From assembly GCF_946892675.1 (NCBI RefSeq), contig NZ_CAMPOV010000002.1:186001-250000 (forward strand): a DNA stretch of 64,000 nt, given 5' to 3'. Below the pieces are notes generated by a model. That model was not told the DNA's origin, made no database searches, and worked only from the letters and a program-made list of their open reading frames with translations. The translations under genes and the position numbers were made by a program. This document shows, piece after piece, positions 23,780 to 50,725 of this stretch. Source of the stretch: Arthrobacter sp. Marseille-P9274. Its GTDB lineage: Bacteria > Actinomycetota > Actinomycetes > Actinomycetales > Micrococcaceae. The first letter of the stretch is position 1. Each line of letters opens with the position of its first letter.

Positions 23780-23813
23780 CATATGCTAATAATGATCATA
23801 GATAGTTGTTGTG
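23780..23813 (+). promoter_or_regulatory. AT-rich promoter/operator patch upstream of cofD
   Basis: An AT-rich island (CATATGCTAATAATGATCAT, continuing AGATAG) sits 30-65 bases before the cofD start in otherwise GC-rich DNA. It contains an ATGAT core like the patches before the catabolic genes (34031-50418). The remaining 210 bases of this spacer hold nothing recognisable. Confidence 0.5.
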
Positions 23814-23844
23814 ATTCAGAGCACAAGAAGGAGGGGGCTCGGCG

Positions 23845-24912
23845 GTGGAAAAAATAACCGTCTTGTCCGGCGGAGTCGGAGGCGCGCGTTTCGTGCAAGG
23901 ACTACTGGCGCATTTGGCAGGAGCATATCCTTCCGACGCCGGTCAGGAATCCGCGGTGGACGTAACTGTTATCGCCAACACCGGTGACGACATGTGGCTA
24001 AACGGACTCCGGGTGTGTCCGGACCTTGACACCCTTATGTACACTCTGGGCGGCGGAATCGACGAGAGCCAGGGCTGGGGCCGGACGGATGACAGCCGGC
24101 GGACGGCTCGCGAGATTGCCGCCTACGGGCGGGGCTGGGACTGGTTTACGCTTGGCGACCTTGACCTCGGAACCCATATTGTCCGCTCCGAACTCCTGCG
24201 GGAGGGCGCGACGTTGAGCGAAGCGACCGAATTCTTGTGTCGGCGCTGGCAGCCCGGCGTGAACCTTCTGCCCATGAGCGACGAGCCGGTGGAGACCCAC
24301 GTTCGGCTGGCCGAGACGGTGGACGGGCATCTGGAAGGAGACCTTATCCATTTCGAGGAATGGTGGGTCAGGTACCGGGCAGGCGTCCCCGCGGCCGGAT
24401 TCGTCCAAGTGGGGCTGGAGTCGGCCACCGCGGCACCGGACGTTGTCGACGCGATCCTGGACGCCGACGTCGTGCTGGTCCCGCCATCCAACCCGGTGGT
24501 ATCCGTGGGCACCATACTGGCCGTGCCTGGCATCCGCGAAGCCATATGCAATACAAGCGCTCCGGTTGTGGGCGTCTCCCCCATCATCGGCGGCTCCGCG
24601 GTACGCGGCATGGCGGACCAGTGTCTGGCAGTCATCGGGGTGACGTCCAGCGCGGCCGCTGTCGGACTGCATTACGGCGCCAGAAGCGCCGGCGGACTGC
24701 TGGACGGCTGGCTAGTGGATACGGCAGACGAAGCTGCCCTTGCACCGCTCAGGGATGCCGGGATCCACTCGGTCGCTACGCCGCTCTGGATGACCGATAC
24801 TCCGCTGACGGCCGCCATCGTCTCTGAAGCCCTCGCTCTGGCCGAGCAATCGGGCGCGCAGCATAAAAGTCCCGCCCACCGGCCTCGCCTTGCCAGCCCC
24901 GCAATTATCTGA
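23845..24912 (+). CDS. cofD: 2-phospho-L-lactate (or phosphoenolpyruvate) transferase, CofD/FbiA
   Basis: 355 residues from a GTG start with AAGGAGG upstream. It transfers the phospho-lactyl or phospho-enolpyruvyl group from its GDP/GPP-activated form to Fo, giving F420-0 or dehydro-F420-0. The N-terminal GGVGGARF loop (residues 9-16), [16 protein letters not shown], the YTLGGGID motif and [12 protein letters not shown] are all diagnostic. It opens the F420 operon; fbiC follows after 25 bp. Which three-carbon donor is used cannot be told from this gene alone. Confidence 0.95.
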
Positions 24913-24937
24913 AAACCAGACCGCAGGAGTCGCGACA

Positions 24938-27652
24938 ATGAACGAGAATAAGCCTTTTGTTCCCTCTGAAAGCGCCATTCGGCGTTCGCTGCGGCGCGCC
25001 GAGGACGGCGTGACGCTGAACGCGATCGAGGCGGAGACGTTGCTGCATGCCCGGGGTGAAAATCTGGAACGGCTGCTCACAGCGGCGTCGCGGGTGCGTG
25101 ATGCGGGACTTGAAAAGGCTAAACGGCCCGGGGTAATCACCTACTCGAAAAAGGTCTTTATCCCGGTAACGCATCTTTGCCGGGACCGTTGTCATTACTG
25201 CACGTTTGCCCAGACGCCCGGGCAGCTGGCCAAGGCGGGCAAGTCCCTGTTCCTGTCCCCGGATGAGATTCTGGACGTCGCGCGCCAGGGCGCCGCCTTG
25301 GGGTGCAAGGAGGCACTGTTCACTCTCGGGGACCGTCCGGAAGATCGTTGGCCGGCTGCGCGGGAGTGGTTGGACGCCCACGGTTACGACTCCACTCTGG
25401 ACTACGTTCGGGCCATGGCGATCCGTGTTTTAGAGGAGACGGGGCTGCTGCCGCACCTGAACCCCGGCGTGATGTCGTGGGAAGAGATCCAGCGGCTCAA
25501 GCCTGTCTCACCGTCAATGGGAATGATGCTTGAAACCACGGCTACAAGGCTCTGGTCGGAGAAGGGCGGGGCGCACTACGGCTCCCCCGACAAGGACCCG
25601 GCCCTGCGTCTGCGCGTACTGGAGGATGCAGGGCGTTCGAACGTGCCGTTCACCACTGGGGTGTTGCTGGGCATCGGTGAAACCTATGCAGAGCGGGTGG
25701 AGGCCGTCTTCGCCATTCGTGCCGCCGGCCGACGGCACGGCCATATCCAGGAAGTGATAGTGCAGAACTTCCGGGCCAAGGACGCCACCGCCATGATGGG
25801 TGCTGCGGACCTGGGGTTGGAGGAGTACGCGGCCGCCGTAGCCGTGACTCGGCTGGTGCTAGGACCCAAAGCACGGGTACAGGCACCGCCGAACCTCACG
25901 GACGCGGACGAGCTGTCCTTACTGGTCCGGGCAGGAATAGACGACTGGGGCGGCGTCAGCCCGCTGACCCCGGACCATGTGAACCCGGAGCGGCCCTGGC
26001 CGCATTTGGACGACTTGGCGAGACTGACCGCGGGCGCCGGATTCACTTTGCGAGAGCGGCTCACCGTTCACCCGTACTTCGTGCATTCCGGTGAACCATG
26101 GATCGATCCCCGTGTGCTGCCCCATGTGAAGGCGTTGGCCGCCCCGGACGGACTCGCGAACGAGGATGCGAGTCCGGTGGGCCGGCCGTGGCAGGAGCCG
26201 GACCCGGACTGGGCGGACGTTGGTACCGGGCGGGTGAACCTGCACACTGAAATCGACACCGAGGGGCGTACCGGCGACCGGCGCGGGGACTTCGACGCCG
26301 TGTACGGAGACTGGAATGCGTTGCGTGAGGAAGCAGTTGCCGCCCGGCGGCGTGCGCCCGGCAGCGGCGGCCACCAGGTACGGGCCGCACTCGCCCGCGC
26401 AGAGAACAATCCGGCTGGCCTGTCGGACGCCGACTATCTGGCGCTGCTCTCCGCCGAGGGCCCCGAGCTGGAGGCCCTCGCTGCCTTGGCCGACCAAGTC
26501 CGGGCCCAGACTGTGGGCAACGACGTGGGCTATGTAGTCAACCGCAACATCAACTTCACCAACGTCTGCTATACCGGCTGCCGGTTCTGCGCCTTTGCCC
26601 AGCGCCGCACCGACGCCGACGCCTTCACCCTGTCCATGCAGCAGGTCGGCGACCGCGTCGATGAAGCGTGGGCGATCGGCGCGACCGAGATCTGCATGCA
26701 GGGCGGCATCCACCCCGACCTGCCGGGTACCGCCTACTTTGACCTCGCCCGTGAGGTCAAGAAGCGCCAGCCGGACATCCACCTGCACGCATTCAGCCCC
26801 ATGGAAATCGTGAACGGGGCCGCCCGAACCGGGCTGTCTTACGAAGACTTTCTCACCGAGGCCAAGGCGGCAGGGCTGGACACAATTCCGGGCACCGCGG
26901 CGGAGATCCTCGACGACGATGTGCGCTGGATTCTTACCAAGGGCAAGCTGCCGGCGGCCGCTTGGATAGAAATTGTCTCCACCGCCCACCGGTTGGGCAT
27001 TCGGAGCAGTGCCACGATGATGTACGGGCACGTCGATAACCCGACCCACTGGGTGGATCATCTGCGCACGCTGTCCCGGATTCAGGACGAGACCGGCGGC
27101 TTCACCGAATTCGTGCTGCTGCCTTTCATCCACACCAACGCGCCGGTGTACTTGGCCGGTATTGCCCGGCCCGGGCCGACCCTGCAGGAGAACCGTGCCA
27201 TCCACGCCGTCGCCCGCCTGATGCTGCACGGGCGGATTGACCATATCCAGACCTCCTGGGTCAAGCTCGGCAATCGTGGCACCTCGCTGATGCTCCAGGG
27301 CGGCGCAGATGACCTCGGCGGCACCCTCATGGAGGAAACCATCAGCCGGATGGCAGGAGCCGACAACGGCTCTGAAAAGACAGTTACCGAACTTGAGCAG
27401 CTGATCCGGAGCATCGGCCGCACTTCCTGGCAGCGCACCACAGAATACGGCACACCGACGGCGGAACGTCTCGCGACGGCCCGCAAACACGCCGATACGG
27501 GCTTCGCCGCAACCGGCAAATCGCTGAAAGTCCTGCCGGAGGCCGCCGATGCAGGCCGCATGCCTGTCGGCACCGTCCCGGTCTCCCTCGGCATGCCCGG
27601 GCTTGGACAGCCGGAACAGGATCGTCTGGAAGGAGTGCTCTCATGCCGCTGA
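24938..27652 (+). CDS. fbiC: Fo synthase, fused CofG-CofH (FbiC)
   Basis: 904 residues from the ATG at 24938 with a GGAG site. It makes the deazaflavin chromophore Fo from tyrosine and the ribitylamino-pyrimidine of flavin synthesis. Two radical-SAM halves are fused: CofG-like first, with C-x3-C-x2-C at Cys81/85/88 (CRDRCHYC), and CofH-like second, at Cys544/548/551 (CYTGCRFC). Motifs such as [20 protein letters not shown] and MMYGHVDNP are intact. The fused form is typical of actinobacteria. Its last 10 bases overlap cofC. Confidence 0.96.
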
Positions 27653-28410
27653 CACGCACGTCGAGGGCGCCGGTCGGGCCGTGGACCCTCGTGGTGCCCT
27701 TTAAAGGAGGCCCCGAAGCCAAAAGCAGGCTCGGGCACGCCTCGCAGGCCAGCCCCGGATTACGTCCCGACGTGCGCAGCCGCCTCGCCCTCGCCTTCCT
27801 GTCCGACACGGTCGCTGCCGCTCGGGCCGTCCCCGAAGTGGCGGACATCGTGATCGTCTCCTCCGACGCGGCCCTGCTCACCGCCATCCCGGACATCATT
27901 CTGGTCGCCGACCCCGGACAAGGACTCAACGCCGCCGTGACGGCGGGCATCGAATGGGCCAGCGCACAGGTACCGAACCGCCCGATGGCCGCACTGACCG
28001 GGGATCTGCCCTGCCTTCTTCCCCATGATCTGGCCGCGGGCCTCGCCGCGGCCAGGGAACACCCGCGTTCCCTGGTGGCGGACCGCCACGGTACTGGCAC
28101 GACTCTGCTCACCGCCCTGCCGGGCCAGAAGCTCATCCCCCGGTTCGGCACCGGCTCGTGCCACGCCCACACCCGCGCCGGTCATGCTCTGCTCCCCATC
28201 CCGGGCGCCTCCACGCTTCGCCTGGACGTCGATAGCGTCGAGGACCTCAACACGGCGCTTCGCCGCGGCACGGGCCACCACACCCGCTCCACCATGCTGC
28301 GCCCTCCACCCCGCGCTTACGGCGCCCGCCTGTCCGACAATCACCCACCCCTCATTGCGGCAGCCGTCAGATCCGCTCGGCTGGCTGCTTCTGTCCTTCC
28401 GGTTCCGTAA
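27643..28410 (+). CDS. cofC: Phospholactate/PEP guanylyltransferase, CofC/FbiD
   Basis: 255 residues. The ATG lies inside the fbiC end and has GGAAGGAG before it. The nucleotidyltransferase fold is visible: [17 protein letters not shown] at the start, then [38 protein letters not shown] and [16 protein letters not shown] near the end. It activates 2-phospholactate or phosphoenolpyruvate with GTP for CofD. A poorly conserved tail of about 35 residues follows the catalytic fold. Co-transcription with fbiC and cofE is clear from overlap and spacing. Confidence 0.93.
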
Positions 28411-28434: not shown

Positions 28435-29280
28435 ATGTCCGGCCTTTCCATCACCGCACTTGACGGCATCCCAGAAATCGGCCCTGGCGACGACCTGGCG
28501 GCCCTCATCGGAGATGCCTTCGCCGCCTCAACCGAAGGCCTCCGAGGCGGTGACATCCTCGTGGTCACCAGCAAGATCGTCTCCAAGGCCGAGGGCCGCC
28601 AGGTGCCCGCCGTCGACCGGGAAGCGGCGATCACCGCCGAATCCGTGCGCCTGGTCGCCAGCCGCGCGCATCCCGGGGGCATGACCCGCATCGTCGAAAA
28701 CCGGCAGGGGCTGGTACTGGCCGCCGCCGGGGTCGACAACAGCAACACCCCGGACGGCACCATCCTGCTGCTGCCCAAGGACCCGGACGCTTCGGCCCGC
28801 AGACTCTGCCTGGCCCTGCGCCAACGATTCGGCGTGGCCCTGGGCGTGATCCTCAGCGACACATTGGGCCGCCCGTGGCGTGAAGGCCAGACGGACGCCG
28901 CAATAGGTGCCGCAGGTATCCGCGTCCTCGAAGACTACCGGGGAACACGCGATGCCCACGGCAACCTTCTCGCCGTCTCCGCCGCCGCCGTCGCCGATGA
29001 AATCGCAGGCGCAGCAGACCTCGTCAAGGGCAAAGCCGCCGGCCGGCCCGTCGCCCTCGTCCGCGGACTGGACCACCTCGTGCTCCCCGAGCCCGACAGT
29101 GCCGGCCCGACCGGCACTGCGCGCGGGTTGGTCCGAGCAGCCGAAAACGACATGTTCCGGCTCGGCAGCGATGAAGCGTACGCCCTTGGATTTGCCGACG
29201 GACAAGCAGCAGCGGCAGCCCTACAACCAGTGACCAGCGCCGTTCCCGAAGAGGCGGCATCCGGACGGATCAGCAAATGA
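28435..29280 (+). CDS. cofE: F420-0:gamma-glutamyl ligase, single-domain CofE
   Basis: 281 residues that cover only the ligase. [50 protein letters not shown] and [11 protein letters not shown] are the GTP/Mn2+-binding signatures. It adds glutamates to F420-0. Mycobacterial FbiB carries an extra C-terminal nitroreductase domain of about 200 residues that reduces dehydro-F420; here the protein ends about 30 residues after the ligase fold. If this organism uses the phosphoenolpyruvate route, a separate reductase must exist elsewhere. Its TGA overlaps the transporter ATG. Confidence 0.93.
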
Positions 29281-30599
29281 CAGCCGAGGTATCCGCTTCC
29301 GAGACATCCCGGGGCCGTGCGGGTTCCGCTTCCAAAAGGGATATCCGCCGCATTGTCGCCGGTGGGGTGGCCGGCCAAGTTGTCGAGTTCTACGACTACG
29401 CGCTCTACGGGCTGCTCGCGGCATCGATCGCACGGGTCTTCTTCCCTTCCGGCGATCCGGCCCTCGGCATCCTCTCGGCCTTCGCCGTCTTCGGCGTCGC
29501 CAACTTCATGCGGCCGCTCGGCGGGCTCGTCCTGGGACCGCTGGGCGACCGTGTGGGCAGGCGGACGGTTCTTGTCATCTCGGTCACCACCATCTCCATC
29601 AGCACCTTCCTCGTCGGGGTCTTACCCACCGAAGCCGCCATCGGCGTGGCGGCGCCCATCCTGCTGGTACTGCTGCGGCTGGCTCAGGGATTCTCCGCCG
29701 GCGGTGAGGTCATCTCCGTGGTCACATACATCTCGGAGCACGCGCCGGCGAAGCGCCGCGGCTTCTACACTTCCTTCCTCCAAAGTGGTGCGACGTTCTC
29801 CTTCCTCATGGCCTCCGCTGTCGTCCTGCTGGTCACGGCGTGGGCACCCGGCGATGCGTTCGATGTTTGGGGCTGGCGCGTGCCATTCCTGCTCGCGCTT
29901 CCCCTGGGCGGGGTGGCCATCTACCTCCGGTTGAAGCTCGAGGAAAGCCCCGTCTTCATCCAGCTCCGGAGCGAAGGCGAGCTGTCCAAGCGGCCCTTGC
30001 GCGAGGCCCTTTTCGAGACGCCGTGGCTGATCGTCCAGGGTATCGCCGTCGTGGCGCTGACCTTTTCAGCGAACTTCATCTTCCTGTCCTACTTCCCCAC
30101 GTACCTCAAGGGGCAGGGGTTCACCAGCCAGGATGCCTTCCTGGCCACCACCATCGGCCTCGTCGCCAGCGTGGCACTGCACCCGGTGGTCGGGTTGCTG
30201 TCCGACCGCTTCGGCCGGAAGCAGGTCGCCGTCGCCTCGGCAGTCTTCTTCTTGCTGCTCAGCTGGCCGCTCTTCGTCATGCTCTCCTCCGGCTCCCTGG
30301 GCCTGGTCATCCTGGCCCTCGGTGGCATGGCGTTGGGCCTGGGCGGCGCCGTGGCGGTCCTGATCTGCTTCTTCACGGAGTTCACGTCGTCGAGGACCCG
30401 GATGGCCACCTTTGCGATCGGATACAACATCGGCGGCGCGGTGTTCGGCGGGACGGCATTGTTCCTCGTCCAGCTTCTCGTGATACAGACCGGAGATGCC
30501 CGTTCGCCGTCCTACTTCCTCATGTGTGCGGCAGCGATCACGCTGGCCGCGCTCCTGACTATCCGCAGCTACGCTAAACCCGGCGAGGCGCTGCGCTAG
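29277..30599 (+). CDS. MHS-type MFS transporter (metabolite:H+ symporter)
   Basis: 440 residues, about twelve helices. [16 protein letters not shown] in helix one, [10 protein letters not shown] in loop 2-3 and [11 protein letters not shown] in helix four identify the MHS branch (ProP, ShiA, KgtP and uptake systems for organic and aromatic acids). The ATG overlaps the cofE stop by four bases, so it is translated with the F420 genes. This is unusual and suggests that F420 is made when a particular acid is imported. The substrate is unknown. Confidence 0.88.
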
Positions 30600-31150: not shown

Positions 31151-32083
31151 TTAGCGAGTCACGGATCCGGTAAGCGACGCGATCGGCCGCAGGAGGATGG
31201 GCCGAACGGCCACCCACGCCAAGATCATCACGACCAGGGAGGCCGCGAAGAGCCAGAAACCCAGCCACCCGCCGTCGTCCCTTGCTGCATACATGTGGTT
31301 GAGGTTGCGCAGGGCACCGGTGGTGAGCACCAGCGTGACGTGCACGATGATGAAGGCGACGAAGTAGAACATGACCGGCAGGTGCACGGCACGGGCCAGC
31401 TCGATCGGGTAGGCCTTGTTGATCCCGGCCTGCTTGGGCCACGCCGAGGACATCCGCAGCCCGGTGATGATGGCCAGCGGCGCCGCGACGAAGATCGTGA
31501 TGAAGTAGGTCAGCAACTGTAGGGCGTTGTAGTTGACCCAGCCGTTCTCCAGCGGCCAGTCAAGCGACGCGTATTGCAGGGCGGCGGAGACGGCGTTGGG
31601 GAAGACATCCCAGCTCGTGGGGACTACCCGGGTCCACTGGCCGGTGGCGAAGAGCAGGACGTAGAAGATGAGCCCGTTGAGTACCCAGAGCACGTCCAGG
31701 CTGAGATGGAACCAGAGGTGCAGGCTCATCTTGGTCGGCGGATTCTTGGTCTTGATCAAGCCGCGGTTGTTGCGCGTCCAATACCCCGGCGGCCGCGTGG
31801 TGGTCCGGACCAGCCAGCCGCTACGGATAATCAAGAGCATAAAGAACGCGTTCAGGAAGTGCTGCCAGGCCAGCCAGGCAGGAAACCCGACGGGCGCTCC
31901 ATGGGGCAGCTCCGATTCACCGGGGTAGTCCGCAAGAAAGGACTGGACGGCCGGGAGCTCGCGGAGGCCTTTGGCAACGAGGACGACGGCAAGAAGTGCA
32001 ACGAGGGCGGCGGGCAGGATCCAGACCAGCTTGAACCACTTGTTCTTGGGAGGCGCGGGTCTTGTCGAAGTCGATGCAGACAT
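31151..32083 (-). CDS. Membrane cytochrome b (b561/formate dehydrogenase gamma-like)
   Basis: 310 residues with about six hydrophobic helices. Histidines in membrane segments suit a di-heme b-type cytochrome: His75 (LAWQHFLNAFF), His122 and His126 (LHLWFHLSLDV), His234 (RAVHLPVMFYF) and His248 (FIIVHVTLV). This set recalls the cytochrome b561/FdnI-type quinone-reactive subunits. It lies downstream of etfB-etfA on the same strand, after a hairpin. No soluble dehydrogenase partner is adjacent, so it may serve as the membrane outlet for the ETF or another flavoprotein of the island. That role is inference. Confidence 0.78.
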   Translation of the reverse strand: MSASTSTRPAPPKNKWFKLVWILPAALVALLAVVLVAKGLRELPAVQSFLADYPGESELPHGAPVGFPAWLAWQHFLNAFFMLLIIRSGWLVRTTTRPPGYWTRNNRGLIKTKNPPTKMSLHLWFHLSLDVLWVLNGLIFYVLLFATGQWTRVVPTSWDVFPNAVSAALQYASLDWPLENGWVNYNALQLLTYFITIFVAAPLAIITGLRMSSAWPKQAGINKAYPIELARAVHLPVMFYFVAFIIVHVTLVLTTGALRNLNHMYAARDDGGWLGFWLFAASLVVMILAWVAVRPILLRPIASLTGSVTR

Positions 32084-32196: not shown

Positions 32197-33168
32197 CTAG
32201 CTGGCGCGGGCCTCGATGACCTTGATCAGCTGGGGCACGACGGCGAAGACGTCGCCAACCACACCGAAGTCGGCGATGTCGAAGATCGGCGATTCCGGAT
32301 CCTTGTTGATCGCGACGATGGTTTTGGACGTCTGCATCCCGGCCCGGTGCTGGATGGCACCCGAGATGCCGAGCGCAATGTAGAGCTGCGGGGACACCGA
32401 GGTGCCGGTCTGGCCGACCTGGTACGACTGAGGCACGTAGCCGGCGTCGACCGCCGCCCGTGAGGCGCCGACGGCGGCACCGAGCGCGTCGGCCAACTGC
32501 TCGACCAGGACGAAGTTGTCCTTCGACCCCAGTCCACGGCCACCGGAGACTACCTTGTCGGCGCCCCGCAGGTCAGGGCGGCTCGAGGTGACGACCGCAT
32601 CCTTGACCCTGTCGATGATCGCCGAGCCGGCAGCATCCGCAACCACGGCGGCAGTGGTGACGGCGGCCGAAGTCGGGATGGCTCGGTCTTCGATCGCTCC
32701 CTGGCGGATGGTGATCACCGCAGGCCCGCCCTCGACGGTGGATTCAACGTTGAAGGCGCCGCCGAAGACGGAGTGGGCGGCGATGATCCGGTCACCCTCG
32801 AGGCGCAGGTCGACGGCGTCCGTCACCAGTCCGGCCCGGAGCCGCACTGCGATCCGGCCCGCGACGTCGCGGCCTTCGACCGAATTGACGGCCACGATCG
32901 CGGAGGGCTCCAGCTCGGCTGCGGCGGCCGCAAGGGCTTCGACCTGCGGGGTAACCAGCAGCCGGCCGGCCTGCTCCGTTTCGGCGACGTACACCTGTGC
33001 CGCGCCGAGCGACCCGAGCTGTTCGCCGAGTCCATCGGAGGATCCGGGCGCCAGGGCCACAACGGCAACGGGAGTGCCGAGCCTGGCTGCCGCGGCGATA
33101 ACCGAGGCGGCAGTGCCGCGTACCTCTCCATCCGGCGAGGTTTCGATGAGCGCGAGTACGTTGGACAT
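32197..33168 (-). CDS. etfA: Electron transfer flavoprotein alpha subunit
   Basis: 323 residues. The C-terminal FAD domain is clear: [20 protein letters not shown], the [14 protein letters not shown] motif, the [18 protein letters not shown] signature and [21 protein letters not shown]. With EtfB it takes electrons from the several acyl-CoA dehydrogenases encoded around it and hands them to the quinone pool. The start at 33168 has CGGAGGA upstream and lies 14 bases past the etfB stop. It is complete and normal in length. Confidence 0.96.
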
Positions 33169-33962: not shown

Positions 33963-34030
33963 TGCTTCACTCCTTATTGCGTCCATTCCAGCGAGTAACT
34001 CCGGTCGCGTTGTAAGCACCGTACCAGAAA

Positions 34031-34060
34031 CATGCATATCATGACCATAGATTATCCGAA
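34031..34060 (-). promoter_or_regulatory. AT-rich ATGAT-type patch upstream of etfB
   Basis: CATATCATGACCATAGATTA stands out in GC-rich DNA, about 70-100 bases before etfB. Its complement contains TCATGATAT, the core also seen before several island genes. It may be a -10 region, an operator or both. Confidence 0.45.
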
Positions 34061-35036: not shown

Positions 35037-35061
35037 ACAATACTATGATAATCATTGATGC
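35037..35061. promoter_or_regulatory. AT-rich ATGAT patch, SDR side of divergent promoter
   Basis: ACAATACTATGATAATCATT contains the near-palindrome ATGATAATCAT. It lies about 90 bases before the SDR gene and 145 before the CoA-transferase gene. Confidence 0.5.
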
Positions 35062-35147
35062 AGTTCAGCCGGGGTAATGGCGAGGCAATGAGGTCCGCGC
35101 AATCCGGCACCTCGGCTATGGAGCATTGCCATCCGACTATTCTTAAT

Positions 35148-35170
35148 CCATTATCATAATTACTATTTTC
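35148..35170 (+). promoter_or_regulatory. AT-rich patch before CoA-transferase
   Basis: CCATTATCATAATTACTATT carries TATGAT on its complement. It ends about 36 bases before the CoA-transferase start, a usual -10/operator distance. Confidence 0.5.
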
Positions 35171-38867: not shown

Positions 38868-38970
38868 AGTATAACCGTATACATGAATTGAGGATAGGGC
38901 CGGAGCCGGAGCCTCGTCATGCGGCAAATTCTTCATTGCCTCCTTCATGACAATCATGATAAGCAATATG
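38868..38970. promoter_or_regulatory. Divergent promoter with two AT-rich patches
   Basis: AGTATAACCGTATACATGAA (from 38868) faces the NTF2-like gene. TCATGACAATCATGATAAGC (from 38945) lies 15 bases before the thiolase ribosome site and carries the CATGAT core. The second is likely an operator overlapping the promoter of the thiolase operon. Confidence 0.5.
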
Positions 38971-41641: not shown

Positions 41642-42411
41642 GCCGCGAAGAAAAGCCGCTGATCGTCGAAGAGCGCGGCCGGGTGCTGGTCCTGACCCTG
41701 AACCGCCCGCACGCGAAGAACGCCATGTCATTGCAGCTCTCGGAGGAACTGGCAGAGGCTTTCGAGCTCCTCGACACGCGGAAGGACCTCAGCCTGGGAG
41801 TCATCACCGGGGCCGGAGGCACCTTCTGCGCCGGGATGGACCTGAAGGGGTTCGCGCGCGGCGAAATCCCGATCGTTCCCGACCGCGGCTTCGCGGGGTT
41901 GGTCCAGCGCCCCCCGCGCAAACCTCTGATAGCTGCCGTGGAGGGCTACGCTCTGGGCGGCGGATTCGAGATCGCTCTGGCCTGCGACCTCATCGTCGCT
42001 GCGGAGAACGCGACCTTTGGACTGCCCGAGGTGAAACGCGGGTTGACCGCCAACGCCGGTGGGTTGCTGCGGTTGCCCGACCGGCTTCCGTACCATTACG
42101 CCATGGAGTTGGTCCTCACCGGGCGCATGCTGCCGGCTCCGGAGGCCGGCGAGCTGCACCTGGTCAACCGGGTGACGGAGCCCGGAGCGGCCCTGGACGC
42201 AGCGCTGGAGTTGGCCGAGGAGATCGCCAGGAACGCGCCGCTCGCCCTGGCCACTTCCAAGCAGGTCATGGTGGAGTCGGTCGACTGGCCGGTGGAGGAG
42301 AAGTTCGCCCGCCAGCACGCCTTCGTCGACCCGATCCGCAAGTCCAACGACGCCGCCGAGGGGGCGCGGGCTTTCGTCGAAAAGCGCGTTCCCGTCTGGA
42401 CCGGGAGCTAG
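41638..42411 (+). CDS. Enoyl-CoA hydratase/isomerase (crotonase)
   Basis: 257 residues. The oxyanion hole is made by CAGMDLKGF and AAVEGYALGGGFEIALACD. The region where hydratases have two catalytic Glu reads LPEVKRGLTANAGG, which keeps the second Glu, while the first position (FGLPE versus the EIALACDL side) is less clear. It should hydrate an enoyl-CoA or shift its double bond. The ATG overlaps npdG by four bases. It is the last gene of the thiolase operon, 169 bp before the MFS start. Confidence 0.92.
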   Translation: MSREEKPLIVEERGRVLVLTLNRPHAKNAMSLQLSEELAEAFELLDTRKDLSLGVITGAGGTFCAGMDLKGFARGEIPIVPDRGFAGLVQRPPRKPLIAAVEGYALGGGFEIALACDLIVAAENATFGLPEVKRGLTANAGGLLRLPDRLPYHYAMELVLTGRMLPAPEAGELHLVNRVTEPGAALDAALELAEEIARNAPLALATSKQVMVESVDWPVEEKFARQHAFVDPIRKSNDAAEGARAFVEKRVPVWTGS

Positions 42412-42580: not shown

Positions 42581-43846
42581 TTGAGCGGTGGAACGGCGCC
42601 TCCGAGCAGTGCCCTAGGATCGCGCCCCCTCTGGGCAGGAAGGGCCCTGGCACTTACGGGCATCGTGCTGGTGGCGCTCAACCTGCGCTCGGCTGTCACC
42701 GCCATGTCGCCGATCGTCGGCCGGATCGACGCAGACATTCCGTTGAGCGATGTTGCACTGGGGTTCATCGGCATGCTTCCCCCGCTGATGCTGGCGTCCG
42801 GCGGCCTGCTGGGTCCGATCCTCTCCCGTTGGATCAGGCTGGAAACCAATCTGGTGCTGGCGTGCGCCGGAATGGCCGTCGGACATCTGGTTCGCTCCCT
42901 GGCTGGCGACTTCACGCAACTGCTGGCGGGCAGCATTGTGGCGATGCTTGCGATGGGCGTGGGAAACGTCCTGCTACCGGCGCTGGTCAAGAAGTACTTT
43001 CCGGACCGGATTGCCCTAATAACCAGCATCTACGCCATGCTGTTCTCCGTCAGCACCGCCATCCCCGGCACCGTCTCACCCATGGTCGCCGATGCGGCGG
43101 GATGGCGAAATTCCCTGCTGATGTGGGGCATCGCGGCCGCCATTGCGGCGCCTCCATGGATTGCGCTGGCTCTCAGGGGCAGGTCGAAGGCGCGCCAGGA
43201 GCCGGATGGTTCGGCGATCGTCTCCGCCGACCGCACCGCGGGCGCCAGGCTCTGGCGTTCGCGCGTGGCATGGGGGCTGATGCTGATGCATGGACTCTCC
43301 GCGCTCAACGGATATGCGATGCTGGCCTGGCTGCCTGAGATTCTGGCGGATATCGCGGACACTTCGGGCGTCGAGGCCGGCATTCTCCTGTCCCTCTACG
43401 CCGTGACGGCTGGCCCGCTGGCCCTCATCGTTCCAGCGATCGCCCTGAGAATGCGCAACCCCGGAGTGCTCGCCTACCTCGGCGCAGCCATGTTCGTAGC
43501 AGGCTATGCGGGTCTGATGATCTCCCCCAACTTCCTAACGCCGCTCTGGGTCCTCGTCTCGGCGTCGGGCACCGGACTGTTCCCCGTGATGCTCACATTG
43601 ATCAATGCCAGGACCCGGACCCCCGAAATGACCGCCGCGCTGAGCGGTTTCGTACAGGGAAACGGAGCACTCATTTCCGTTGCCGGCCCCCTGGTCGTCG
43701 GCCTCCTCCACGACTGGACCGGTGGATGGACGATTCCGTTCTGTTTCCTCATCGCAGCCGCGGTGGGCATCGTACTCGGCGGGATGCAGCTGCGGAGCCC
43801 GCTCTCCGTCGACGAGGAGCTCCTGGAGTACGCCGACCGTCGCTGA
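42581..43846 (+). CDS. CynX/NimT-type MFS transporter
   Basis: 421 residues from a TTG at 42581, which has GGAGG six bases before it; the frame extends further up without support. About twelve helices are visible. ALNLRSAVTAMSPIVGRID in helix one and LLPALVKKYFPDRIALITSI after helix four mark the CynX/NimT branch. It shares its family with the transporter at 13528-14781 but is not a close copy. It follows the thiolase operon and probably imports the growth substrate or exports a toxic product. Confidence 0.83.
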   Translation: MSGGTAPPSSALGSRPLWAGRALALTGIVLVALNLRSAVTAMSPIVGRIDADIPLSDVALGFIGMLPPLMLASGGLLGPILSRWIRLETNLVLACAGMAVGHLVRSLAGDFTQLLAGSIVAMLAMGVGNVLLPALVKKYFPDRIALITSIYAMLFSVSTAIPGTVSPMVADAAGWRNSLLMWGIAAAIAAPPWIALALRGRSKARQEPDGSAIVSADRTAGARLWRSRVAWGLMLMHGLSALNGYAMLAWLPEILADIADTSGVEAGILLSLYAVTAGPLALIVPAIALRMRNPGVLAYLGAAMFVAGYAGLMISPNFLTPLWVLVSASGTGLFPVMLTLINARTRTPEMTAALSGFVQGNGALISVAGPLVVGLLHDWTGGWTIPFCFLIAAAVGIVLGGMQLRSPLSVDEELLEYADRR

Positions 43847-43978: not shown

Positions 43979-45646
43979 TTAGGCGCAAACGGCCGCGGCG
44001 GACTCCTCCTGCACGTCCGCCGTCGTCCTGCCCGCCGCGGTGCGCCCCGCCAGGTAACCGAACACGAGGCCCGGCCCGAGGGTTCCGCCGGCGCCGCCGT
44101 AGACCATGCCGGTGGGGCCTGCCATGACATTACCCGCTGCAAACAGGCCCGGGATGACCTCGCCGTCGACGGAGAGGACCTCCGATCTGGGCGTTGTGCG
44201 CGGGCCGCCCTTGGTCCCCAGCGTGCTGCTGTGCAGTTCCACGGCGTAGAACGGGCCCCGCTCCAATGGTCCGAACGTCGACCCCGCTCCGGGATAGGCA
44301 TCCCTGTTGCCGACGAAGCCGTCGAAAGCGCTCTCGCCGCGCCGGAAATCGGGGTCCGAACCCACCCGGGCGTGGCCGTTCCAGCGCTCGACCGTCTCCA
44401 CCAGCGCGTGGGCCGGCACTCCGATCTTACCCGCCAGGCCGGCAAGATCGTCGGCGCGGGTGACCCATTCGGGCACCGCGGAGCCCGGCGCGGCGCCGAA
44501 GCCGCCGAAACGCTCCACCATCTGTGCGTCGAATACCACCCAGCAAGGGAGGTTCCGGTAGTCGAACGAGGTGGGATCGAGTTCGTGGAAGGCCCCGCCC
44601 ATCGCGTTGTAGTTCGCGGCCTCGTTGGCGAATCGCTTGCCCTCGCGGTTGATCATGATCGAATGCGGCACCGTGCGCTCGCGCTGCACCAGGTACACCG
44701 CCTGGGAACCGTAGGCGTTCTCCCCCGGCAGCGTGCAAACCGGGACCCACCAGGCCTCACGCATGTTGCCGAGGCTGGCTCCGACACGCATTGCCATCCG
44801 CAACCCGTCGCCCGTGTTGGTGGGAACGCTCGCCGGATGGCTGATCGGCCCGCGCAGGAAATCCCGGGCAAGATCCTTGTCCCACTCGAATCCACCCGTC
44901 GCCAACACGACGCCTTGGCGCGCCAGCACCTCATGCCGGCCCAGCGGCCCCTCAAGGCAAACGCCGCCAACGGCTCCGTTCTCAAGAAGAAGTTCGACGG
45001 CCCGCTCCCCGAGATGCACGTCGACGCCCTTATCCAGGCATCCCTGCAGCAGTGCGGCGACCATCGCGCGGCCCAGCCCCTCGACCTGCCGCTCCTCGCG
45101 CTCGCGTGCCACCTCCGGCGCCAGGAATCCGGACCCACCGCCTATGGGCGTCTCTCCCACGAGCATGCGGCGCGGAGTGCCACCGAGTCTTGCCGCCCAT
45201 TCGCCCAGGCGCTGTAGCGAAAACAGTTGCGGCTCGAGCGAGCGTCCCCCGCCTGGTTTTCCGCCCTGCTGCTCGGGGTGGTAGTCCGGGTAACCCGGAA
45301 CCAGCGACATCTTCAGCGGCGTGGTGTCGAGCCAGTCCAGCAGTTCCGGGATCGTGTCGACGAAGGCCTCCACCATCTCCGGGAGGATCATGCCGTTGGA
45401 CAGGGACTGCAGATAATCGAGCGCATCGGTGCGCGAGTCCCGGACCCCCTGTTCGCGCGCATACTTGTTGTCCGGCATCCACGCGACGGCGCTGGATAGG
45501 CACGTGGTGCCGCCAACGACCTGCGCCTTCTCGAAGACCGCCACCTTCGCGCCATCGTCCGCCGCCGCCAGTGCGGCACAGAGGCCCGAGGCGCCACTAC
45601 CCAAGACAACGACGTCGTATGCGGTACTACCTGCAATAGTGCTCAC
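43979..45646 (-). CDS. FAD-dependent dehydrogenase, 3-ketosteroid-delta1-dehydrogenase-like
   Basis: 555 residues from the GTG at 45646, with GGGGAG upstream. The FAD fold begins YDVVVLGSGASGLCAAL and has VFEKAQVVGGTTCLSSAVAW. The end, GLFAAGNVMAGPTGMVYGGA with GGTLGPGLVFGYLAGR, is shared by KstD, fumarate-reductase-type and related FAD_binding_2 enzymes. It most likely introduces a double bond next to a ketone, or does the reverse. It is a single gene on the reverse strand, with an AT-rich patch in front. Steroid or other cyclic ketone substrates are possible. Confidence 0.85.
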   Translation of the reverse strand: MSTIAGSTAYDVVVLGSGASGLCAALAAADDGAKVAVFEKAQVVGGTTCLSSAVAWMPDNKYAREQGVRDSRTDALDYLQSLSNGMILPEMVEAFVDTIPELLDWLDTTPLKMSLVPGYPDYHPEQQGGKPGGGRSLEPQLFSLQRLGEWAARLGGTPRRMLVGETPIGGGSGFLAPEVAREREERQVEGLGRAMVAALLQGCLDKGVDVHLGERAVELLLENGAVGGVCLEGPLGRHEVLARQGVVLATGGFEWDKDLARDFLRGPISHPASVPTNTGDGLRMAMRVGASLGNMREAWWVPVCTLPGENAYGSQAVYLVQRERTVPHSIMINREGKRFANEAANYNAMGGAFHELDPTSFDYRNLPCWVVFDAQMVERFGGFGAAPGSAVPEWVTRADDLAGLAGKIGVPAHALVETVERWNGHARVGSDPDFRRGESAFDGFVGNRDAYPGAGSTFGPLERGPFYAVELHSSTLGTKGGPRTTPRSEVLSVDGEVIPGLFAAGNVMAGPTGMVYGGAGGTLGPGLVFGYLAGRTAAGRTTADVQEESAAAVCA

Positions 45647-45831
45647 TTGCTCACTCCCCGTTCTCGTCATCGATGTGGGGCTGCAGACGCGGCCCGTCGT
45701 CAGATGTACGGCGGGATTCGCCGCGGCATGGCTGGGTCGCATCGTGCACGGCTCCCGCGGATCGGAGCCCGCACGCGGGACCCGACGCCCCAAAGACCTA
45801 CGTCACAAGGAGAAGCTAACACTAAACGGCG

Positions 45832-45857
45832 ATCATCACAATCGTTATACTAGATTC
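45832..45857 (-). promoter_or_regulatory. AT-rich patch before the KstD-like gene
   Basis: GATCATCACAATCGTTATAC, then TAGATTC, about 190 bases upstream of the chosen start. The complement has TGATGAT and TATAAC. The 245 bp spacer between the KstD-like gene and gntR holds nothing else. Confidence 0.4.
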
Positions 45858-45892: not shown

Positions 45893-46624
45893 CTAGAGCG
45901 TCCAGGAGATCGGAGTGTTGAGGACCTCGGGGAACTTGCGTTCAACATAGTTCGCGTACTCGATGATGTGGTCGTGCATGGCGCTCGCAGCAGCGGTCGG
46001 ATCCTTGGCTGCGAGGGCCTCATAGATGGCCGCGTGCGCTTTGTGGACAGCGACCCTGCGGTGTTCCGGATAGTCGACGCCGATGGCCGTGCCGTCCAGC
46101 ATTCCCAGGAGGGTATCGATGAGGTGTCCGAACAGGGCGTTGCCGGAGTTGTGCGCGATGATGTCGTGGAACCGCTTGTTCATCTCCAGAAAGACCGATT
46201 CGTCCCCGACCTTGTCGAGCATGTGGTCCACGCTGTACTTCAGCTCCGCCAGCTGCTCCTCACCCATGCGCAGCGCCGCGAGCTGGGCCATCATCGGCTC
46301 CAGGGCCGTCCGGGCTTCGGTAATGGTGCGGAACGGGGCGTTCTCGAACTGCAGCAGCAGGGTCAGGGCGGTCGCGAGGCCGCTGCCGTCTGGCTGCTGG
46401 ACGACCGGACCTCCGCCAGGCCCGGGCTTCAGCACGATGATGCCCTGCAACTCCAGGAAGCGCAGCGATTCCCGCAAAGTCCCGCGCCCGATGTTGTACT
46501 CCTCCAGCATCACGCGCTCGGGAGGCAGCCGATCCCCCGGCTTGTTCCCCCTCTGCTGGATGTCGGCGACGATTCGCTTGGCCACCAGCACGGCCGTCTT
46601 CTGCGGCCGTAACGAGGTCTGCAT
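45893..46624 (-). CDS. FadR-type GntR regulator, copy 2
   Basis: 243 residues, the close paralogue of the regulator at 36420-37169. Identical long stretches include LKPGPGGGPVVQQPDGSGLA and the start of the FCD domain. The recognition helix (YNIGRGTLRESLRF versus YQIGRGTLRESLRF) differs at one residue, so both should bind the same DNA sites. Ligand-domain differences (DKVGDESV versus ERIGDENE) may allow different inducers. It lies upstream of the KstD-like gene and downstream of the ferredoxin reductase gene. Confidence 0.9.
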   Translation of the reverse strand: MQTSLRPQKTAVLVAKRIVADIQQRGNKPGDRLPPERVMLEEYNIGRGTLRESLRFLELQGIIVLKPGPGGGPVVQQPDGSGLATALTLLLQFENAPFRTITEARTALEPMMAQLAALRMGEEQLAELKYSVDHMLDKVGDESVFLEMNKRFHDIIAHNSGNALFGHLIDTLLGMLDGTAIGVDYPEHRRVAVHKAHAAIYEALAAKDPTAAASAMHDHIIEYANYVERKFPEVLNTPISWTL

Positions 46625-46721: not shown

Positions 46722-47990
46722 TCAGAAGATTGGTTCCAATTCCACCATCAATTTCTTGAGCGGCGTCCCCGCGTCCCCGGCCCTGTCGACCGGCACGTTG
46801 AGACCCTTGGCCAAGAGGGTCTTGACGGCCATGAAGTCGACGGGGTTATTGATGCAATCCACCGCAATGACTTGCCCGGCGCGGTAATAGACCACCGAGA
46901 ACTTCTCATCGGACATCGTGCCTCGCACCACCACCTGGTCGTGACCCGCCGAGAGTCCGGCCATCTGCAGTTTCAGATCGCCTTGGTCAGACCAGAACCA
47001 CGGCACCATGCGGTAGGCGACCTTGGAGCCCATGATCGTGGCGGCGGCGTTCCGCGCCTGTTCGACGGCGTTGTTGACGCTCTCGAGCCGCAAGCGCTCC
47101 GGCGCACCGTCGCGCGGCAGCGGATTCGGCATGTCTGCGCAGTCGCCAGCGGCCACGGTGGTGCCGTCAGAAGCCAGCGAATGCTCATCCACAACTATCC
47201 CGTTGCCGCAGGTCAACCCAAGGGATTCGGCGATCTCCGTCCGCGGAACAACCCCAATGCCGACCAGGACGACGTCGGCCGGCACGATTTGACCACCTTC
47301 GAGTTCGACGCCGGCGACCCGGCCGTTGCCGTCGCCGGCGAAGCGGACGATCCGCGCGTCCAACGTGACGTCCAGGCCTCGCGACCGGTGCGCTTCGAGG
47401 AAGAAGTCCGAAGTGGCCTCCCCCACCGCCCTGCCGATGAGCCTGGGGGCCGCTTCAAGGACAGATACCGTCTTGCCCAGCTTCCGGGCACTCGCCGCAG
47501 CCTCCAGCCCCACGAATCCGCCGCCTACCACTACGACGTTTTTCGCGCGTTCCAACCGCGCCTTCAAGTCGTCCGCATCGTCGGCGTCGCGCAGATAGAG
47601 CACTCCATCCAACTCCGCGCCATCGACGTGCAGCTGCCGCGGCCGGGCACCTGTCGTCAGCGCCAAGCGGCTGAAGGCGAACTGGCTGCCGGAAGCAGAC
47701 GTCGCCACGCCGGCGCCGTCGAGCCCCTTGTCGATCGAGACGATGCGCTCGCCCAGGACCAGTTGAATGTTGTTCTTCCCGTAGAAGTCCTGGGTCCGGT
47801 ACGCCAGCGTCTCCGGCGTGACGAGCCCCTGCAGGTAAGCCTTGGATAGGGGCGGACGCTGGTATGGGGGGTGCCGCTCCGCCCCGACGATGATGATGGG
47901 CGCCGCGTAGCCCAGCTCGCGGAGGGAGCTGGCAAGTTGCACACCAGCCTGTGAGGCCCCGACAATGAGGATCCCGCTGTTCTCGGACAT
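46722..47990 (-). CDS. Ferredoxin reductase, rubredoxin/putidaredoxin reductase type
   Basis: 422 residues. FAD binding is by GILIVGASQAGVQLASSLRE, NAD binding by NVVVVGGGFVGLEAAASAR, and the third flavin motif is TVAAGDCADMPN. ERHPPYQRPPLSKAYL is typical of reductases that serve P450 and ring-hydroxylase ferredoxins. It follows the 2Fe-2S ferredoxin gene by five bases. It would pass NADH electrons through the ferredoxin to the P450 encoded 1 kb upstream. Confidence 0.93.
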   Translation of the reverse strand: MSENSGILIVGASQAGVQLASSLRELGYAAPIIIVGAERHPPYQRPPLSKAYLQGLVTPETLAYRTQDFYGKNNIQLVLGERIVSIDKGLDGAGVATSASGSQFAFSRLALTTGARPRQLHVDGAELDGVLYLRDADDADDLKARLERAKNVVVVGGGFVGLEAAASARKLGKTVSVLEAAPRLIGRAVGEATSDFFLEAHRSRGLDVTLDARIVRFAGDGNGRVAGVELEGGQIVPADVVLVGIGVVPRTEIAESLGLTCGNGIVVDEHSLASDGTTVAAGDCADMPNPLPRDGAPERLRLESVNNAVEQARNAAATIMGSKVAYRMVPWFWSDQGDLKLQMAGLSAGHDQVVVRGTMSDEKFSVVYYRAGQVIAVDCINNPVDFMAVKTLLAKGLNVPVDRAGDAGTPLKKLMVELEPIF

Positions 47991-47995
47991 GGTGA

Positions 47996-48316
47996 TCAGA
48001 CCTGGCTTTCCGGCGTTTCGACGTAAACGTGGTCGCCCTCTTCGAGCTTCAGCTGGCACGATAGCCGCGAGTTGCTGCGACGCTCCTCGGTGGTGCCGTC
48101 GAGCATCTCATCCTCGAGTTCGCTCATGGCTGTCAGCCCTTCCAGATCCTCCTCACGGACGAAGACGTGGCAGGTGGAGCAAGCCAAGGATCCGCCACAA
48201 TCGGCCACGATTCCGGGGAGCCCGTTTCGTACCGCGATCTCCATTACGGAGTCCCCGGCATTGCCACCGAGAACATTGACATCGCCCGCAGCCGATGCAT
48301 AGGTCACCTTTGGCAT
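47996..48316 (-). CDS. 2Fe-2S ferredoxin, putidaredoxin/adrenodoxin type
   Basis: 106 residues. Ligands are visible in ADCGGSLACSTCHVFV (C-x5-C-x2-C) and the late Cys in SRLSCQLKLEEG. Both motifs are specific for ferredoxins of bacterial P450 systems. The start at 48316 is normal, and the gene is coupled to the reductase gene. An AT-rich patch lies upstream. Together with a 3Fe-4S ferredoxin at 50528, the P450 has two candidate electron donors. Confidence 0.94.
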   Translation of the reverse strand: MPKVTYASAAGDVNVLGGNAGDSVMEIAVRNGLPGIVADCGGSLACSTCHVFVREEDLEGLTAMSELEDEMLDGTTEERRSNSRLSCQLKLEEGDHVYVETPESQV

Positions 48317-48349
48317 AGTCTTTCCCTTTCCATCCGGAAGATTGCCCAA

Positions 48350-48378
48350 TTCATGATCATGATTGTAACTATAATTGG
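48350..48378 (-). promoter_or_regulatory. AT-rich patch before the ferredoxin-reductase operon
   Basis: TTCATGATCATGATTGTAAC, then TATAATTGG. It holds two overlapping CATGAT cores, and TCATGATCATGA is a near-palindrome. It lies 34-62 bases before the ferredoxin start, so it is a likely operator or promoter. Confidence 0.55.
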
Positions 48379-48427: not shown

Positions 48428-48958
48428 CTATGCTGCAGAGAATCTGACCGGTTCCAGAAGTTCGCCGATTGCATAGACGCCGTTGAAGACCTCAACGCCG
48501 GCCGGCAACAGCTGCGCCTCCCACTGCTCCCAACCTTCCGGGAGGCGGTCCGCACCCGGCCCGACCGGGACCAGCGTTGCCAACTCGATGCGGTGCTCCC
48601 TGTCGGGCCAGTGTTCGGCGTCGATCACCGTCAGCACCGCCCCTGCCTCTCGGAACTCGATCCAGGGGTCGACGATCATCACGAAGAGCATGCCCCCGTG
48701 CCCCTTGTACCGGAGGTCACCCCGGTACTTGACGAGCCCTTTGCGGCGTGCCGGATCGTAGCCCGAGGCGTCGTCCAGCTCGAAGAAGTAGACCCCGTGT
48801 CCGGTGTCCGTGGCGCCATAGCCCGCGCCCCTCCGGCCGTCCGGCATGGAGTCGATGTAACGCGTGAAGCTGCCCTTGACCCCCCAGGAAAGTCCCGCGC
48901 GGTTCACTGGCTCGTCCATGCTCGGCACCTGTGGGGCATTCATACTAATATCCGTCAT
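48428..48958 (-). CDS. HtaA-domain protein, not exported
   Basis: About 176 residues from the ATG at 48958; the ATG at 48943 is an equal option and no ribosome site decides. LSWGVKGSFTRYIDSMPDG, GATDTGHGVYFFELDD, LVKYRGDLRYKGHGGMLFV and DPWIEFREAGAVLTV form one HtaA domain. HtaA domains bind haem on the surface of corynebacteria. This one has no signal peptide, stands alone and lies between the P450 and its ferredoxin genes. It may bind haem, or a hydrophobic substrate, inside the cell. Function is unproven. Confidence 0.75.
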   Translation of the reverse strand: MTDISMNAPQVPSMDEPVNRAGLSWGVKGSFTRYIDSMPDGRRGAGYGATDTGHGVYFFELDDASGYDPARRKGLVKYRGDLRYKGHGGMLFVMIVDPWIEFREAGAVLTVIDAEHWPDREHRIELATLVPVGPGADRLPEGWEQWEAQLLPAGVEVFNGVYAIGELLEPVRFSAA

Positions 48959-50315: not shown

Positions 50316-50390
50316 GGAACTCCCCTTTACTTCCGGCTTCGCGATTCGCGCGACCCAGAGGACCCGGCGTCCGCAGCGAAACTCGTCCTT

Positions 50391-50418
50391 GTATCTACTA
50401 ATTATTATAATAGAATCG
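50391..50418. promoter_or_regulatory. AT-rich divergent promoter of P450 and ferredoxin
   Basis: GTATCTACTAATTATTATAA, then TAGAATCG. It is the most AT-rich patch in the window and contains TATTATAATA, but not the ATGAT core. It lies 76 bases before the P450 and 110 before the 3Fe-4S ferredoxin. Confidence 0.5.
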
Positions 50419-50527
50419 AGATTAAGCCCAGTCTAGGGGTCCGCCATCAGATTTCGCGAACGTTTTTCGGTGCGGACCGCGAGACCGGCCCACCACCGTT
50501 CGGGTAGGACAACCAGAAGGAGTACCG

Positions 50528-50725
50528 ATGCGCATTGAACTTGACCGCAACGTCTGCCAGGGACACGGCGTTTGCCAGATGACCGCCGCGAACCTGTTCA
50601 CGCTCTCCGACGACGACGGCCTGGCAATCCAACCCCCGAACCCGATCGACCCGCAGTTCCAGGATGAGGGACGCCTGGCCACCGCCAGCTGCCCGGAACG
50701 CGCCCTCAGCGTCATCGAAGACTAG
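50528..50725 (+). CDS. 3Fe-4S ferredoxin of P450 type
   Basis: 65 residues with the ligand pattern CQGHGVC, where the second of four usual cysteines is replaced (C-x2-H-G-x-C), and a distant Cys-Pro in ASCPERAL. This is the standard small actinobacterial P450 ferredoxin. AGAAGGAG precedes the ATG. It is divergent from the P450 gene, which it most likely serves. Confidence 0.94.
   Translation: MRIELDRNVCQGHGVCQMTAANLFTLSDDDGLAIQPPNPIDPQFQDEGRLATASCPERALSVIED

Follow-up and report, generated by a model that had tools for sequence, protein, structure and literature searches.

Which enzyme consumes reduced F420 when the genes for making the cofactor lie among genes for the breakdown of CoA esters, and do cofactor supply and catabolism belong together? 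The question is raised by a 64,000-nucleotide stretch of the genome of Arthrobacter sp. Marseille-P9274 (G000; 4.78 Mb in 16 contigs), here called the window, which corresponds to C2:186001-250000 and is numbered from 1. The initial annotation of the window had linked a complete cofD-fbiC-cofC-cofE set and the F420 reductase gene npdG to a catabolic island, and that linkage held: the genes form a block shared among three genera of the family Micrococcaceae, FbiC is rare in that family, and a common motif lies upstream of the genes. We propose that the locus is probably a transferable catabolic island that brings and co-regulates its own F420 supply, its F420 reductase and the luciferase-like hydride transferases (LLHTs) that use the cofactor.

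The complete biosynthesis set was borne out when NCBIfam equivalog cut-offs were applied to these proteins and to NpdG. CofD scored 342.5 bits (cut-off, 257.5; TIGR01819), FbiC 1473 bits (1018; PRK09234), CofC 144.6 bits (105; TIGR03552), CofE 227 bits (180.7; TIGR01916), and NpdG 206.7 bits (149.8; TIGR01915), residues 4 to 218 of NpdG also aligning to the Thermobifida FNO structure 5N2I (202 bits). CofE aligns to PRK13294 only up to position 264 of 449. The proposed fusion of the set to a metabolite:H+ symporter (MHS)-type transporter was rejected, as the cofE and MHS open reading frames (ORFs) overlap by only 4 bases; the transporter gene is missing from the G038 block described below. The npdG gene is linked nearby as described, at 11.7 kb after the end of cofE rather than 10 kb, and it is indeed embedded in a catabolic operon, between a short-chain dehydrogenase/reductase (SDR) gene and a crotonase gene and downstream of a thiolase gene.

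The FbiC of the window is the only one above cut-off in a TIGR03551 search of the genome, so FO synthesis depends on this locus. Of 395 family genomes, 6 encode an FbiC above the cut-off (11 at an E value of 1e-60), as do 2 of 10 genomes of the genus. In four of the six carriers, FbiC and an NpdG relative (45 to 100% identity) share a contig, at a distance of 3.5 to 13.5 kb; a fifth, Arthrobacter hankyongi (G005), has three NpdG copies, one of which sits at a contig end beside cofD and the first part of fbiC, and in the sixth (G371) no NpdG relative was found at an E value of 1e-15. NpdG relatives of at least 40% identity were also seen in G142, G244, and G320, for which no FbiC is listed. A second stand-alone CofE, likewise without the FbiB C-terminal domain, is encoded on contig C1 (L047:14618-15649). 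A second CofD candidate on C1 (PF01933, 231 bits) was tentatively set aside as YvcK-like, because the family also matches control genomes (Escherichia coli and Lactococcus).

The island extends over about 71 kb and 64 called genes (C2:209845-281033); the window covers its left 40 kb, and another 31 kb lies beyond the window. With a counterpart defined by at least 50% identity, 59 of the genes have one in G038 and 56 in G088, two other genera of the family (55 in both), at median identities of 87% and 82%, and gene order is kept over most of the island. The block occupies C3:6566-69252 in G038 and about 48300-112809 of C59 in G088, there with a few gaps and one moved segment. Its edges are cofD on one side and a thiolase/3-hydroxyacyl-CoA dehydrogenase pair on the other, the last gene not being present in G088. 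In ten genes compared, fourfold sites differ by 33 to 62% and proteins by 7 to 31%, with no internal stops, which argues that the block is old and under selection. We infer that the island has been transferred between hosts. The G038 block is flanked by 220-base direct repeats that are 95% alike (C3:6218-6437 and C3:69428-69646), both copies of the 3' end of a GntR gene and in the same direction, which are likely an insertion scar; no tRNA was found in the ten stretches examined.

The initial annotation saw no F420H2 user of a known family because the window edge cuts the island. This is correct for the window itself, but the part beyond it holds two genes of the luciferase-like fold (PF00296), although neither passes an F420-class cut-off. 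LLHT1 lies 2.1 kb beyond the window, within a group of minus-strand genes that begins inside it, with two CoA ligases in its surroundings; an SDR, a crotonase, a CoA ligase, a branched-chain-type ATP-binding cassette (ABC) transporter, and others follow it. LLHT2, 25.8 kb past the window end, stands between a CoA-ligase-like fusion and an SDR, after which come an acyl-CoA dehydrogenase, a thiolase, and a 3-hydroxyacyl-CoA dehydrogenase. Both exceed the PF00296 gathering cut-off of 27.9 bits (LLHT1, 179.6; LLHT2, 170.6), and their counterparts in G038 and G088 are 93 and 89% (LLHT1) and 90 and 85% (LLHT2) identical. For the SDR of the LLHT2 run (C2:276832-277600), the match to the G038 relative is split between two frames joined near residue 63, which points to a frameshift or a sequencing error; the relatives in G038 and G088 are intact.

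LLHT1 relatives at an E value of 1e-45 or better occur in 4 of the 395 family genomes, all of them among the six FbiC carriers; three of the four share the island, so these are only two independent cases. At 1e-60, only its own genome was matched among 386 genomes of the order, and no phage match was found at 1e-20. Among plasmid records at 1e-30, LLHT1 matched 14 and LLHT2 matched 8, all from haloarchaea, Streptomyces, or Embleya, which we take to be F420 makers, whereas two control luciferase-like monooxygenases (LLMs) of G000 matched 397 and 306 records, of which at least 356 and at least 154 were from Proteobacteria by listed genera. The LLHT1-like genes on Halalkalicoccus jeotgali plasmid 2 (L232) and a Haladaptatus halobius plasmid (L233) adjoin genes for CoA ester lyase, thioesterase, SDR, and keto-acid cleavage. 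In a tree from which 4 of the 26 LLMs of G000 were left out as long or cut ORFs (L024, L026, L034, and L036), LLHT1 and LLHT2 form a clade (support, 97/92) with two LLHTs from the NpdG cluster of A. hankyongi. On balance, at least one island LLHT is likely F420 dependent.

Co-regulation is suggested by a motif that the operons have in common. Of 83 intergenic stretches from the islands of the three genomes, 11 contain the 7-mer ATTATTA and 11 contain ATGATTA; neither word occurs in 91 stretches outside. Gibbs sampling returned a 22-bp motif of about TAATCTATNATCATNATTANTA. It was recovered from G000 alone in one of five seeds, with a score of 149.9, compared with at most 99.8 in 12 outside sets and at most 79.5 in 8 shuffled sets, each run with two seeds. 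Of the 43 Gibbs sites, 33 entered a matrix built from G038 and G088 only and 32 entered the matrix for wider scans; the omitted sites were mostly weak and include the G038 cofD site. The G038 and G088 matrix matched 17 places in the G000 island at 14 bits or more, 15 of them intergenic, and had no match in 173 kb of outside sequence; with the threshold lowered to 12 bits, the counts were 17 inside and 1 outside. Since orthologous sites are not independent, each operon's own sites were also left out of the matrix. Scores were then 30.5 bits for cofD, 32.5 for the SDR-LLHT1 run, 23.7 for thiolase-npdG, and 18.3 for the LLHT2 run with an old yellow enzyme (OYE) gene, and all 11 operons tested outscored every one of the 173,379 outside positions. 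The motif lies within 400 bases upstream of 17 of the 25 same-strand runs of the island. A matrix with their own sites included gave 16 island matches in G038 and none elsewhere in 94 kb, and 12 in G088 with 1 outside in 100 kb.

The motif also turned up in loci on which it had not been trained. In named genomes, 80 NpdG loci (1.37 Mb; the top-ranked among at least 561) gave eight matches of 16 bits or more. Three are in Gulosibacter chungangensis, outside called genes, one of them between a thiolase gene and an npdG-LLHT-cofE-cofC run; a fourth match precedes an SDR-SDR-cofD-cofE-npdG-fbiC-cofC run in Aeromicrobium sp. PE09-221. Two of the remaining four fall within genes and two near other genes. 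No match of 16 bits or more was present in the examined stretches of G005, G142, G244, G295, G371, and G320 or at the C1 cofE locus, and none of 10 bits or more in the 26 LLM loci of G000 with short flanks. The candidate readers are the two GntR/FCD regulators of the island, which are 78% identical and possibly bind the motif. A scan for GntR boxes gave one match in one genome; the motif came from the k-mer and Gibbs searches.

NpdG and LLHT genes keep company in other genomes as well. Of the 80 loci, 11 without a called NpdG were excluded from the neighbor counts; 40 of the other 69 contain an LLHT, which adjoins NpdG in 31, and fbiC is present in 22. The NpdG loci hold 47 LLHTs in 1.34 Mb, against 7.3 expected at the density of G000; the sample leans to Nocardioides, so the loci are not independent. 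A close parallel is a single run in Nocardioides sp. Root240, thiolase-SDR-acyl-CoA dehydrogenase-like gene-LLHT-NpdG, which combines relatives of the window thiolase, SDR, and NpdG (59, 57, and 53% identity) with an LLHT, but that LLHT belongs to another clade. A cluster on the Streptomyces cathayae plasmid NZ_CP121683 resembles the island in that npdG is accompanied by four LLM genes and by genes for acyl-CoA dehydrogenases, enoyl-CoA hydratase, and adenylate-forming enzymes; IS3 elements are present too. It differs in having no cof genes in the 24.6-kb stretch and another gene order, and its best LLM is only 32% identical to LLHT1 or 36% to LLHT2.

Other F420-linked gene groups were seen alongside these. 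In eight Nocardioides and Pimelobacter loci (L133, L141, L145, L147, L160, L167, L180, and L183), one or two called genes away from fbiC there is an LLHT gene that diverges from npdG; the intervening gene in L133 is acyl-CoA dehydrogenase-like, so that pairing of an LLHT with such a dehydrogenase may be a general F420 module. In A. hankyongi, a cluster of CoA-ester genes spanning about 70 kb (G005:C5:60001-131317; L105 to L108) includes several LLHTs, cofC, a nitroreductase, and two copies of NpdG, and closes with NpdG-cofD-fbiC at the contig end; it appears to be another F420 catabolic cluster, distinct from the island and lacking the motif. On C1 (L047:8202-11531), a TIGR03842-type LLHT (591 bits) stands with genes that from their sequence look hydantoinase-like and carbamoylase-like. 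Similar-looking runs with NpdG occur in Leucobacter (L151), G244:C54 (L110), and G005:C31 (L109), with cof genes in L151 and G244, and the LLHTs fall in two clades; such runs hint at F420-linked reductive breakdown of pyrimidines or hydantoins.

The mechanism that we propose for the island, including the LLHT cofactor, the direction of NpdG, the regulator, the reaction, and the substrate, would run as follows. CofD, FbiC, CofC, and CofE would make F420, and NpdG would reduce it with NADPH to F420H2, the direction being taken from passages of a review that describe F420 reduction as dominant for bacterial Fno (PMC8498797). LLHT1, LLHT2, or both would then transfer a hydride from F420H2 onto a C=C or C=O bond of a CoA-ester pathway intermediate, and the reduced product would pass to the thiolases, crotonases, and acyl-CoA dehydrogenases. 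The P450 with its ferredoxin and reductase and the GMC and aldehyde dehydrogenases would probably start the attack on the substrate. Through the common operator-like site, for which the two paralogous GntR/FCD regulators are possible readers, the substrate would induce the synthesis and the reduction of the cofactor along with catabolism.

The substrate itself can be guessed at with low confidence as alicyclic, perhaps terpenoid, from the solved relatives of the P450 (P450cin at 182 bits, then CYP142, CYP130, and P450cam) and from the best NCBIfam model of the KstD-like enzyme, 4-oxocyclohexanecarboxylate 2-dehydrogenase, which it matches far below the cut-off (439.5 bits against 1000); its match to the solved structure 7p18 reaches 270 bits. 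The window protein is thus not this dehydrogenase. The model and the P450/ferredoxin/reductase set recall the Chc pathway, with its P450-ferredoxin-reductase and 4-oxocyclohexanecarboxylate desaturases, which we take to be that of Sinomonas; the island differs from it in the additional F420 genes and LLHTs. Possible, though somewhat short of probable, is a wider reading in which an aerobic CoA-ester pathway for a non-nitro substrate needs hydride transfer from F420H2 and travels with its cofactor supply under a substrate-responsive operator, the cofactor being made only when food is present. In that reading, the whole supply would travel along because most relatives of the host are without F420.

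Several observations weigh against the proposal. The electron transfer flavoprotein (ETF) and cytochrome b561 genes are missing from the G088 block, as MHS is from that of G038. At 10 bits, the motif is found 18 times inside the island and 9 times outside; 8 of the 25 runs have no site of their own, the cofC-cofE-MHS run included (it may be transcribed by read-through from cofD-fbiC); the site before cofD is weak in G038, though strong in the other two genomes; and the OYE-LLHT2 site overlaps a called start codon. The motif does not fit the usual TKGT/ACMA boxes of the FadR subfamily, to which exceptions are described in passages of another source (PMC4494728). A DH-F420 reductase of the FbiB C-terminal type was found with neither CofE, although a genome-wide search was not made, and the nitroreductase of G005 (PF00881) has no relative in the examined C2 and C1 stretches of G000.

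The remaining counterpoints concern the LLHTs and lead to the best-surviving alternative, in which the island LLHTs are FMN-dependent monooxygenases and F420 serves another island enzyme or LLHTs elsewhere. LLHT1 (164.0 bits) misses the TIGR03619 cut-off of 166.9 bits, LLHT2 (127.4 bits) does so by more, and their group lies on the side of the tree with FMN-type families, where deep support is weak. All 26 PF00296 loci of G000 were scanned against LLM class models. Two on C1 score as F420 classes alone and so may be other F420 users: L013 passes TIGR03842 (591 against 295 bits) and L021, which adjoins the second CofE, passes the F420_G6P-family cut-off (274 against 210 bits); L033 passes the latter too, yet scores higher as FMN type, and most others are of FMN or general LLM classes. 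The plasmid control is also not clean, since some of the matched proteobacterial genera (Sinorhizobium and Leisingera) carry cofD on plasmids; a third control LLM matched only five mixed plasmid records, and one haloarchaeal LLHT relative lies near a gene annotated as flavin reductase family. Set against this are the absence of any flavin reductase family among the Pfam-scanned island proteins (a second KstD-like protein was outside the scan), the co-occurrence of island LLHT relatives with FbiC across the family and with F420-type lineages among plasmid records, and the lack of an orthologue of L013 or L021 in G038 and G088 (28 LLM loci compared), where both island LLHTs have one. We regard the FMN alternative as unlikely.

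More improbable still is a reversed NpdG, with an LLHT oxidizing an alcohol intermediate by means of F420 and NpdG passing the hydride to NADP+ to feed the P450 and biosynthesis. The pathway is mainly oxidative, and LLHT-fold dehydrogenases such as Fgd and Adf are described in passages of the review (PMC8498797), but the dominant direction given there for bacterial Fno is the opposite one. The highest FGD score among the 26 LLMs, 194.8 bits for L021, stays below the cut-off (TIGR03554, 420 bits), which leaves NpdG as the only F420 reductase identified. The Ddn-type family PF04075 of flavin/deazaflavin oxidoreductases had no match in the genome, or in the control genomes either, and other families of that group were not searched. 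Least probable, to the point of being improbable outright, is that the F420 genes are passengers serving general needs, for while any F420 enzyme of the cell would depend on the single FbiC over cut-off and cofD is the outermost gene of the block, with a weak site in G038, the common motif stands at cofD in G000 and G088 and at two differently arranged cof/npdG loci, and npdG lies inside a catabolic gene run.

The proposed island has a precedent in the catabolism of nitroaromatics, for which passages of the review describe F420H2-dependent LLHTs (PMC8498797). The degradation of picrate and dinitrophenol by Rhodococcus and Nocardioides, as described there, likewise combines an F420 reductase with LLHT hydride transferases (PMC8498797). 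It differs in that CoA-ester, P450, and FAD-dehydrogenase genes surround the F420 genes here; the F420 biosynthesis genes inside the same island, with a common motif, may be a further difference. No account of such an island was found in the literature searched, in which most subscription papers were not covered. What appears to be new is a block-like island with a whole cofD-fbiC-cofC-cofE set in an FbiC-poor family under a common predicted operator. Coordinates are given in Table 1.

Table 1. Genes and motif sites of the locus, in window coordinates unless a C2 position is given
Feature	Position	Strand	Remark
Motif site	23784..23805	-	31.0 bits; 39 bases before cofD
cofD	23845..24912	+	2-phospho-L-lactate transferase family; TIGR01819; left edge of conserved block
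fbiC	24938..27652	+	CofG-CofH fusion; PRK09234; start inferred, longest ORF from 24890
cofC	27643..28410	+	TIGR03552
cofE	28435..29280	+	TIGR01916; stand-alone, without FbiB C-terminal reductase domain
MFS/MHS-type transporter	29277..30599	+	present in G088, missing in G038
Cytochrome b561-like protein	31151..32083	-	in G038, missing from G088 block
ETF alpha	32197..33168	-	start inferred
ETF beta	33183..33986	-	start inferred
Motif site	34033..34054	-	25.7 bits; before etfB
SDR	34184..34948	-	
Motif site	35039..35060	.	20.7 bits; between SDR and CaiB
Motif site	35144..35165	+	33.2 bits; before CaiB
Class III CoA-transferase (CaiB)	35206..36423	+	PF02515, 367.8 bits
GntR/FCD regulator 1	36420..37169	+	candidate motif binder
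SnoaL-like protein	38253..38816	-	
Motif site	38948..38969	-	26.5 bits; before thiolase-SDR-npdG-crotonase
Thiolase	38985..40163	+	
SDR	40183..40941	+	HSD10-like in the initial annotation
npdG	40973..41641	+	NADPH-dependent F420 reductase; TIGR01915
Crotonase	41638..42411	+	start inferred
MFS transporter	42665..43846	+	start inferred
KstD-like FAD dehydrogenase	43979..45670	-	start inferred
Motif site	45836..45857	-	26.9 bits; before KstD-like gene
GntR/FCD regulator 2	45893..46624	-	
Ferredoxin reductase	46722..47990	-	start inferred
2Fe-2S ferredoxin-like protein	47996..48349	-	PF00111; start inferred
Motif site	48347..48368	+	32.0 bits; start of ferredoxin/reductase pair
HtaA-domain protein	48428..48958	-	
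Cytochrome P450	49050..50315	-	
Motif site	50396..50417	-	31.7 bits; between P450 and ferredoxin
Small Fer4_15-type ferredoxin	50528..50725	+	
Aldehyde dehydrogenase	52737..54212	-	start inferred
Motif site	54343..54364	-	18.3 bits; aldehyde dehydrogenase/GMC intergenic
Motif site	54488..54509	.	19.1 bits; aldehyde dehydrogenase/GMC intergenic
GMC oxidoreductase	54602..56185	+	
Baeyer-Villiger monooxygenase	58226..59824		with hydrolase
Gene run crossing window end	60052..64000	-	aldehyde dehydrogenase, MaoC hydratase, HpcH/HpaI lyase, acyl-CoA dehydrogenase
CoA ligase	C2:250096-251751		off-window
LLHT1	C2:252085-253131		off-window
LLHT2	C2:275786-276799		off-window

Among the neighboring genes, the P450 and the KstD-like enzyme of the initial annotation are both present, together with ferredoxins and a ferredoxin reductase. 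The Baeyer-Villiger monooxygenase (BVMO) that it named is present as well, next to a hydrolase, but lies outside what is conserved: the pair was considered as part of the island core and rejected, as it has a counterpart in neither the G038 nor the G088 block. Just beyond cofD, G088 carries a 70% homologue of a different G000 BVMO. IS3-like transposase ORFs lie at 51493-52640, between the ferredoxin and aldehyde dehydrogenase genes, and have no counterpart at that place in G038 or G088; a C1 ORF (L047:4968-5822) shares its first residues with the window IS3-like ORF but is longer.

Beyond nitroaromatics, little is known of the physiological role of F420 in Rhodococcus, Nocardia, and Nocardioides, according to passages of the review (PMC8498797). 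The locus offers a self-contained case, with a rare and single FbiC, two island LLHTs, and a predicted operator that ties cofactor synthesis to catabolism. If the proposal is true, the island would be a source of new hydride transferases for biocatalysis, and a cofactor pathway that moves and is induced with a catabolic island would go some way toward explaining why F420 is distributed so patchily among bacteria.

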